Positions 2,565 through 4,502 of a stretch of 52,059 nt of DNA are shown one piece after another (positions within the stretch are counted from its first letter, which is position 1; every line of letters begins with the position of its first letter). Both the position numbers and the translations under genes were made by a program. The stretch comes from Acidobacteriaceae bacterium (GTDB taxonomy: Bacteria; Acidobacteriota; Terriglobia; Terriglobales; Acidobacteriaceae), in assembly GCA_003162935.1 (NCBI GenBank), contig PLUW01000007.1:1-52059 (forward strand). The letters run 5' to 3'. Below the pieces are notes generated by a model, which was not told where the DNA came from, did not search any database, and saw nothing but the letters and a program-made list of their open reading frames with translations.

Positions 2565-2881
2565 AAGCGTTAGCGTAGGAGCCGGAGGCGCAGGTGTCAA
2601 GCCACTTCTGACTTCTGATTTTTCATCACAAACCACCAGCGCGTCCTGTCACAGGCACGCCCCTCCAGCGCGACAATAGCCACCGATTGGGGCGGCCGTG
2701 TGCCGCACGCACCGCGCCCTTTGCGACAAGTGGGCTTCGTCGCGACCATGCACACGGGCGCCCCGTGATCCGACCCCTTGACACCCTCTCTTATAATAAA
2801 AGTATCAACACAATGAATTTCAACCGCGCGGCTCTCCGGCCACTAAGTCGAGGTCCGCAACCAGAATTGTGGGGAACGCAC

Positions 2882-3159
2882 TAACTCATTAGGAATCAAG
2901 ATTTTACCTATAACTCCTTTCCGCTCAAGATTTTGGCGGGAATTTCCCGCTAAAATCTTGATTCCAATAGATCGAGGGGGGGAGGGGGGTGGGGGGTACC
3001 CGAAAGCTGGCAGAAAGCAGGAAAACCCCCGGAATACTAGGAGCGCTCATAACTCATTAAGAAATAAAGACTTTACGAGTAACCCGTTTAAACTCAAAGA
3101 CCTGGCGTGATTCACCTCCAAGTCTTTGATTCCAAAAGACCGGTGGAGGGGGTACCACC
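2882..3159 (+). repeat. Tandem pair of homologous structured elements (copy A about 2882-3001, copy B about 3050-3159)
   Basis: Both begin TAACTCATTA, share layout arm1-arm2-arm3, TTGATTCCAA.AGA.CG and GGGGGTACC tails; inverted repeats verified by eye. Confidence 0.75.
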
Positions 3160-3245
3160 CTACCTAAGTGGTTATTGCACCCTTAGTAAATAGTCGACCC
3201 GAAGAAAGGCCAAGTGCTCTAGCGGTACACTTCTGCAAGACTCCG

Positions 3246-4502
3246 ATGAGCATTTCGCCGCGCACCATCTTCCACGTCGACATGGACGCCTTCTTCGTGT
3301 CGGTCGAAGAACTTTTCGACCCGAGCCTGAAAGGCAAGCCAGTCGTCGTCGGCGGACAGCGCGACGAGCGCGGAGTAGTCTCCGCCGCATCCTACGCCGC
3401 CCGAAAATTCGGCGTGCACTCGGCTATGCCCCTGCGCACCGCCGCGAAGCTTTGTCCGAAGGCAATTTTTGTCAACGGACATCCCGAACGCTATCGCGAG
3501 TATTCCGCCAAAGTTCACGAGGTGCTTGGGCACTTCTCTCCCTTGGTAGAGATGGCTTCGGTCGATGAGGCGTATCTCGACATGACGGGAACCGAGCGCT
3601 TGCACGGCAGACCATTGCAAGCCGCGCAGCGTCTGCATGACTCGATGAAGTCGAATACGCATTTGAACTGCTCGATCGGAATCGGCACCTCGCGCCTGAT
3701 TGCGAAAGTATCCTCAGCGAAAGCCAAGCCCAACGGAGTGTTCTGGGTGTTACCGGGAAGAGAAGCCAAATTCCTCGCGCCGCTCGCGGTTGGCGACATT
3801 CCCGGTGTAGGCAAAGTGATGGAAGAGAAGTTGCACGCGATCGGCATCCAGAAAATTGGCGACCTGGCTAAACTCGACGACCGCGATCTGGAAAATCGCT
3901 TTGGGAAATGGGGCCTGGCGCTGGCCGGAAAGTCACGCGGTGAAGACGCAGGAGGCTGGTTCGACAACGAAGTCGGAGAAAACGTCGACCCGAAATCAAT
4001 CAGCCACGAGCACACGTTCGACGAGGACACAGGCGATGCCGAGCGCCTGCAATCCACGTTGATGCGCCTCAGCGAGATGGTGGGAAGGCGCCTGCGCGAA
4101 GGCGGATATTTCGCGCGCACGTTGCAGCTGAAATTGCGCTACAAAGATTTCACAACAATCACGCGAGCGCATTCCCTCGACCAGCCGACGCAGATGGATC
4201 ACCACATCTTCGAGCAAACGCGACGTCTGTTTTTCGCCAACTGGAAGCCGGGCGCTCCGGTGCGCTTGCTCGGCGTGCAAGCGTCAAATTTCGAATCCGG
4301 TCCCGGCCAACTCGACCTGCTGGAGCCAAAGCGCGACGAGCGCTGGAAAAACGCTCTCGCCGCCGCGGACCATCTGCGCGACAAATTTGGCGAAGCGGCA
4401 ATCGGTCTCGCCCGAGGCATGAAAGGCGGATTCCGCGAGCGCATCCACGAAAATCCGGCAGCGCTGCCGGGGAAGGGAAAGAAGAAAAGGCCTGAAGCTT
4501 GA
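3246..4502 (+). CDS. dinB: DNA polymerase IV (Y-family)
   Basis: FHVDMDAFFVSVEE, KPVVVGG, SVDEAYLDMTG, CSIGIGTSRLIAKVSSAKAKPNG; start at the ATG preceding SISPRTIFHVDMDAFF. Confidence 0.95.
   Translation: MSISPRTIFHVDMDAFFVSVEELFDPSLKGKPVVVGGQRDERGVVSAASYAARKFGVHSAMPLRTAAKLCPKAIFVNGHPERYREYSAKVHEVLGHFSPLVEMASVDEAYLDMTGTERLHGRPLQAAQRLHDSMKSNTHLNCSIGIGTSRLIAKVSSAKAKPNGVFWVLPGREAKFLAPLAVGDIPGVGKVMEEKLHAIGIQKIGDLAKLDDRDLENRFGKWGLALAGKSRGEDAGGWFDNEVGENVDPKSISHEHTFDEDTGDAERLQSTLMRLSEMVGRRLREGGYFARTLQLKLRYKDFTTITRAHSLDQPTQMDHHIFEQTRRLFFANWKPGAPVRLLGVQASNFESGPGQLDLLEPKRDERWKNALAAADHLRDKFGEAAIGLARGMKGGFRERIHENPAALPGKGKKKRPEA

Follow-up and report, generated by a model that had tools for sequence, protein, structure and literature searches.

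What are the two structured elements that stand in tandem upstream of dinB in the 52,059-nucleotide stretch of an Acidobacteriaceae genome analysed here (contig PLUW01000007.1; hereafter 'the window')? An earlier note, made from the letters of the DNA, had described two copies 168 bp apart, each with three arms able to form mutually exclusive hairpins, and had offered control of the dinB leader, a dispersed hairpin element or some other function as possible explanations. The description itself proved accurate: all arms lie where they had been placed, the spacing is as described, and an independent search recovered the pairing of copy A as inverted repeats of 15 bp and 18 bp (94%). The explanation, in our analysis, is to be sought in a repeated family rather than in dinB.

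Nucleotide and covariance-model searches identified copies A and B as two members of one dispersed intergenic family, in keeping with one of the options listed in the earlier note. The genome that carries the window returned 52 blastn matches, and a covariance model built on 56 copies indicated at least about 50 copies in the same draft assembly, a count that covers the best candidates only and is, as for every covariance-model count given here, a lower bound. Twelve genomes of the same genus held at least 323 matches at E<1e-6, ranging from 2 to 73 per genome. Among 119 further genomes of the order, 18 carried diverged copies (one carrier being a single-contig genome), and the named records with a match include the Acidobacteriaceae MAGs palsa_286 and bog_209. 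A sister family within the order gave no match across 12 genomes, and a phylum-wide sample searched under stricter filters added none. One same-genus genome (G015), 100% complete, has no detectable elements and so offers a natural control for comparisons. Plasmids and phages yielded no match to the unit; viral contigs yielded none to the core and 15 to the promoter pattern described below.

The mean column identity among cores is 70%, so that individual copies vary considerably. Rfam gave no match in the window at the gathering score, and a permissive Rfam scan of eight loci gave no hit over any element. A literature search with limited coverage of subscription papers found no description of the family, which leaves its novelty unproven; this is apparently an intergenic family of soil Acidobacteriota, present in tens of copies per genome and so far undescribed. 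Elements often lie less than 1 kb from contig ends (in the window's genome on C5, C16, C31, C67, C84, C111, C118 and others), and some are cut at the G-tract by the contig end itself (C5, and C235 of genome G012); the placement may reflect assemblies broken at such tracts.

Within the window, we propose that copies A and B belong to one composite unit, at 2766-3156, that has been placed upstream of dinB (Table 1). Two relatives of this unit occur at unrelated sites of the same genome (on C15 and C45), with similarity confined to the interval from the promoter block to the end of copy B; because the similarity spans only that interval, such units have been copied as wholes, by whatever route. 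The promoter block is an exact match to an element-specific motif, and the stretch from TTGACA to AAAGTATC has a single differing position among the three composite copies. The leader that follows the block contains no recognisable boxA in the copy A/B unit. Further upstream lies a remnant of a second type of leader, degraded to the point of lacking both the CTGCCCC return arm and boxA. A small open reading frame on the - strand (2304-2579), upstream of the unit, resembles a ParD-type antitoxin by eye.

Table 1. Coordinates of the composite unit, its parts and its neighbours in the window
Feature	Position	Strand	Sequence and remarks
Class II leader remnant	2619..2699	+	TTTTTCATCACA, TGTCACAGG half site, GCGACAATAG (-10-like), GATTGGGGCGG; aligned with 46 class II leaders
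Class I promoter-like block	2766..2804	+	TGTGATCC-like start, TTGACA (2778-2783), N8, TATAAT (2792-2797), AAAAGTA
Leader, promoter block to core A	2805..2881	+	Common to the C15 and C45 composites
Core of copy A	2882..2974	+	F1 TAACTCATT (2882-2890); R1 TCAAGATTTTA (2896-2906); F2 TAACTCCTTT (2911-2920); R2 CTCAAGATTTTGGCGGGA (2924-2941); F3 TTCCCGCTAAAATCTTGATTCC (2944-2965); then AATAGATCG
G-tract of copy A	2976..3001	+	G7-A-G6-T-G6, then TACCC
A-B linker	3002..3049	+	3' part (AGGAGCGCTCA) common to the C15 composite, similar in C45
Core of copy B, B-type	3050..3141	+	AAAGACTT ... CAAAGACCTGGCG ... CCAAGTCTTTGATTCC
Weak G-tract end of copy B	3142..3156	+	GGTGGAGGGGGTACC
Putative dinB promoter region	3222..3239	+	dinB-proximal sequence GCGGTACACTTCTGCAAG; from orthologue comparison
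dinB (DNA polymerase IV), neighbour only	3246..4502	+	Name from the earlier note; same-genus orthologues, 83-92% protein identity

The position of the unit invites the view that it attenuates or switches dinB in cis, as part of the leader of that gene, which was the first suggestion of the earlier note; copy A indeed precedes dinB, shares its direction and contains two competing hairpins of near-equal stability. Among the 12 same-genus genomes with dinB, however, an element precedes the gene in only four (G000, which is the genome of the window, G007, G008 and G011), and in those four it differs in type and in position or distance; no element was seen in the remaining upstream regions examined, that of G004 being short, with a partial match. 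In most of the orthologues, whether they have an element or lack one, a GCGGTACACTTCTGCAAG-like sequence stands beside the dinB start codon. Over the family as a whole, orientation relative to the downstream gene is random (99 same, 102 opposite, among 212 copies), the copies keep no constant place or direction with respect to the gene that follows, and no conserved core RNA structure with compensatory changes was found. Since the competing hairpins are not family-wide either (see below), the comparative data largely refute this reading, to which we attach hardly any credence.

Only two of the 212 copies lie inside predicted reading frames; the upstream gene is co-directional more often than not (105 vs 62), and the median gap to the neighbouring gene is 356 bp on the 5' side against 117 bp on the 3' side, all by the calls of a simple codon-score gene caller rather than a curated annotation. 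The long 5' gap drew attention to the leader.

Read on the strand of the window, the core consists of F1 (TAASTCnTT), R1 ((T)CAAGAYTTTA), F2 (TAASTCCTTT), R2 (either CTCAAGATTTTGGCGGGA, 'A-type', or CAAAGACCTGGCG, 'B-type') and a CTAARTCTTTGATTCC-like F3, followed by AAtAGACCG, the G-tract and TACCCC. The F motifs resemble the reverse complements of the R motifs without matching them perfectly, and many pairings are therefore possible in each copy. Copy A folds far more stably than its dinucleotide shuffles (z = -4.8, 0/200) and copy B moderately so (z = -2.3, 5/200); the antisense strands fold equally well (z = -4.3 for A and -3.7 for B), which indicates that the signal reflects inverted-repeat content and not a strand-specific RNA structure. 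In copy A, the minimum-energy structure uses the arm2/arm3 hairpin, and the centroid pairs outer arm3 with arm1. The mutually exclusive hairpins are therefore real in that copy, where they are of near-equal stability, but they are not conserved across the family: runs of at least 10 bp for both arm1/arm3 and arm2/arm3 occur in only 8 of 201 copies, with copy A (15 and 17 bp) and its sister on C15 at the extreme of the distribution.

A similar division applies to the matching of arm changes, which the earlier note had taken as a sign of selection on structure. The changes in arm1 and arm2 are indeed largely matched in arm3 when A is compared with B, but across the family the effect is mostly one of subfamilies. 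Duplexes of R2 with F3 within a copy outperform whole-set swaps (z = -9.6), and raw column covariation likewise looked strong; control for relatedness removed most of this signal, in that swaps of arms between nearest relatives cost little (p = 0.08 for arm2/arm3; p = 0.045 for arm1/arm3, uncorrected and one of ten tests). RNAalifold found no consensus pairs in the core among 56 copies. The earlier note had itself staked selection on RNA structure upon covarying pairs among homologues, and in the core such pairs are largely absent. The missing consensus fold, the swaps between relatives and the count of 8 in 201 together led us to reject a conserved competing-hairpin switch; the competing-hairpin picture fits copy A and does not fit the family.

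Upstream of the core lie promoter-like, hairpin and boxA sequences that the earlier note had missed. Similarity between copies upstream of the core resolves into two classes of leader. Class I reads TTGAC[AT]-N8-TANAAT and then ARAAGTA; in many cases a TGN precedes the -10. When the exact consensus TTGAC[AT]-Nx-TANAAT was sought in 202 upstream regions, x was 8 in 35 of them, 7 in three and 17 in one, other spacings giving no match, and the same pattern was absent downstream of the cores. With up to three mismatches allowed, the full class I motif occurs 13 times genome-wide, 11 of these before an element in the same orientation; a reversed control pattern gave no match in the genome. Two class I-like matches have no called element nearby (C68:25392-25418 and C5:2791-2817 of the window's genome) and are possible solo promoters or decayed units. 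To our knowledge, no promoter with TTGACA 8 nt before its -10 has been described.

Class II leaders comprise TTTTTCATCACA, a CRP-like site (TGTGA-N6-TCACA), sigma70-type -35 and -10 sequences with a spacing of 17-18 bp (27 + 7 hits, and none downstream) and a hairpin, for which RNAalifold returned a consensus fold of -21 kcal/mol with changes on both sides at some pairs. A further motif often follows in both classes, lying about 79 nt beyond the -35/-10 in class II, and was found in 94 of 195 upstream regions, as compared with 8 on the reverse strand, 1 of 206 downstream regions and 1 of 236 window tiles. We name it boxA because its sequence (GGTCTTTGACAA) matches the boxA of the genus rRNA leader; in genome G011 of this genus, the rRNA leader has the same sequence some 130 nt ahead of 16S. 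Such a sense-strand upstream match to the host rRNA boxA is present in about half of the copies, the A/B unit of the window not being one of them, and related genera have boxA in 9 of 33 copies vs 0 for the reversed motif. By this likeness to the rRNA leader, Nus factors would be expected to bind at the element boxA. Leader signals are absent altogether from 65 of the 195 copies (about one third), many of which may be decayed or may use other leaders.

At the opposite end of the unit, two runs of at least four G were found in 131 of 209 copies (9 of 206 in an upstream control), with a single A as the linker in 94 and G6-A-G6 as the commonest form. The base after the tract is T in 79%, with TACC-like bases next in most copies. 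The G-tract is specific to the elements to the extent that all except three GGGGGWGGGGG sites in the window's genome are element ends, and 28 of 33 copies in related genera also have it. The earlier note had both copies ending alike; the G-tract and TACC are present, but the tract of copy B is weak (GGTGGAGGGGGTACC). In some copies a trailer extends beyond the tract (GGTTAATAC...GAGTAAACAG, or a TTGGCAA/TTGCCAA hairpin), and many G-tracts (for example at L055, L232 and L038) are followed by a conserved trailer like GTACTAACTGGTTAATACACTCGGAGTAAACAGG or by a TTGGCAATCTTTGCCAA hairpin.

Tracts of this form have a precedent in human mitochondrial CSB II, where a quadruplex of nascent RNA and non-template DNA ends transcription and termination has been reported for G5AG7 to G6AG8 (PMC5027508, PMC4357710); CSB II with 8-11 guanines gives almost no termination, and the polymerases studied were mitochondrial and T7-type rather than bacterial (PMC5027508). 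Judged by sequence, 89 of 212 copies have a strict CSB II-like form, with two runs of at least five G on the RNA-like strand, a single A or T between the runs and a putative promoter upstream. The tract of copy B is probably too short for termination of the CSB II kind.

Retention of the elements was assessed by comparing orthologous copies, judged as such by their matching flanks. For several pairs, the conservation of the core exceeds that of the adjacent noncoding flank (0.85 vs 0.54, 0.87 vs 0.21 and 0.67 vs 0.40); exceptions are L011/L035, with a core at 0.66 against a downstream flank at 0.75, and L036/L037, in which leader, core and flank are alike. Part of the downstream flank in these comparisons is coding. 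As candidate movers, reverse transcriptase (RVT_1) and Y1 transposase were considered and rejected, their counts being unrelated to copy number: RVT_1 is absent from G000 and G002, both rich in copies, and Y1 (PF01797) from the window's own genome (83% complete).

Fixed-orientation boxA motifs, promoter spacings, G-tracts and core retention lead us to favour, if by a small measure, the view that the family consists of boxA-led noncoding transcription units, and that each copy is, or derives from, one such self-contained unit. In the course of events that we infer from these motifs, RNA polymerase would start at a class I promoter (TTGACA-N8-(TGN)TAWAATARAAGTA) or at a class II promoter with its CRP-like site; a Nus complex would load at the rRNA-type boxA, often right after the leader hairpin; the polymerase would then cross an untranslated core of alternating TAASTCnTT and AAGAYTTTA motifs and stop at the G6-A-G6 tract through a CSB II-like quadruplex, unlike a terminator made of a hairpin and U-run; and the resulting short RNA would act in trans and not on the next gene. 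That the whole amounts to a bacterial noncoding RNA gene family, with a non-canonical promoter (an extended -10 and, 8 nt from it, TTGACA), an rRNA-type boxA leader, a U-tract-independent quadruplex terminator and action in trans, is a more demanding proposal that we put forward tentatively. The transcription-unit reading is weakened by the copies that have no leader signals, by the missing boxA of the window unit, by the unfamiliar N8 geometry, by the lack of a consensus core fold, by the short G-tract of copy B and by the uneven retention of cores.

The same material can be read at the level of DNA, as a mobile palindromic repeat of the REP/BIME or MITE kind, whose F and R motifs would be DNA recognition sites for a transposase or some binding protein, any transcription being a by-product. 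The alternating inverted motifs, the equal folding of both strands, the intergenic location, the coming and going of copies at dinB and the presence of a unit of about 400 bp at three unrelated sites of one genome, bounded by promoter block and G-tract, all agree with such a repeat; a promoter and an rRNA-type boxA in fixed orientation would be needless to it, however, and cores are retained at some orthologous sites. Neither candidate enzyme was found in the genome of the window (83% complete), among the Y1 loci inspected together with 1.5-kb flanks only L076 is accompanied by an element, and neither terminal inverted repeats nor a target-site duplication were seen by eye at the three composite copies. 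We regard this alternative as unlikely, if still deserving of serious consideration.

Two further roles were weighed. A nucleoid-organising system comparable to naRNA4/REP325 of E. coli, in which repeat RNAs pair with or bridge cruciform-capable DNA copies, would accommodate inverted-repeat DNA that is dispersed, placed without regard to orientation and apparently also transcribed (to judge from its motifs), and naRNA4 offers a precedent (PMC6907758); a sequence relation to REP325 is not known, however, and the cores vary strongly between copies, which makes this a distinctly improbable account. A transcription terminator or insulator behind genes, whose core and G-tract would keep transcription of the preceding gene from running on, would fit the excess of co-directional upstream genes and the potential of a G-tract to block polymerase, but promoters and boxA antitermination sites within the units are the opposite of insulation, and the upstream gap is the longer one; there is very little to recommend it.

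If the elements are transcribed, as the noncoding transcription-unit reading predicts, many dispersed noncoding RNA genes would make use of the ribosomal antitermination system, the G-tract end might represent a bacterial terminator that needs no hairpin, and the promoter spacing would fall outside the textbooks. For annotators, the family would be a warning that these widespread repeats of Acidobacteriota are neither dinB leaders nor random repeats.

Several known systems share part of this anatomy. REP/BIME sequences with their RAYT (Y1) enzymes are likewise intergenic, multi-copy and built of alternating inverted palindromic motifs, whereas the present elements are longer, possess a promoter and boxA leader and a G-tract end, display no evident GTAG/CGTC tag at the palindrome foot on inspection of the core alignments, and come from a genome (83% complete) in which no RAYT was found; a SINE-like arrangement would call for a partner reverse transcriptase, which G000 and G002 lack. 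CRISPR arrays have been cited as carrying a boxA ahead of a noncoding, repeat-containing transcript (PMC7862264), as the elements do; the elements, however, are scattered short units rather than one array, with three dissimilar motif pairs per core in place of regular identical repeats and unique spacers. CRISPR-like and attC-like readings were dropped on this anatomy (no spacers, no cassettes). The naRNA4 of E. coli is a noncoding RNA from the extragenic palindromic repeat REP325, a likeness that for our elements is predicted only, and boxA and G-tract are not mentioned for naRNA4 in the accessible portion of its description (PMC6907758).

Acido-1 (RF01686) and Acido-Lenti-1 (RF01687) are also noncoding RNA candidates of Acidobacteria; neither matches the window, and Acido-Lenti-1 matches one locus, away from the elements. 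The matches there (L085:2341-2386, 1772-1817 and 2581-2626) number three within one kilobase and apparently correspond to a GCCCCACTCATTCGCG...GCGAATGAGTGGGGC palindrome that is also seen near other loci of the genus. Mitochondrial CSB II shares with the elements a near-identical tract (G6AG7, G6AG8 or G5AG7 in human; mostly G6AG6, G6AG7 or G5AG6 here) downstream of a promoter and on the RNA-like strand, but is read by another polymerase, so that the likeness is one of sequence form and serves as an analogy. The rRNA antitermination leader (boxB/boxA, NusB-S10) differs in that our elements are dispersed in tens of copies, form units of about 0.2-0.4 kb, include the class I geometry and contain no rRNA; the two have in common a hairpin and then a boxA, matching that of the genus rRNA, ahead of an RNA that is not (or, for the elements, would not be) translated.
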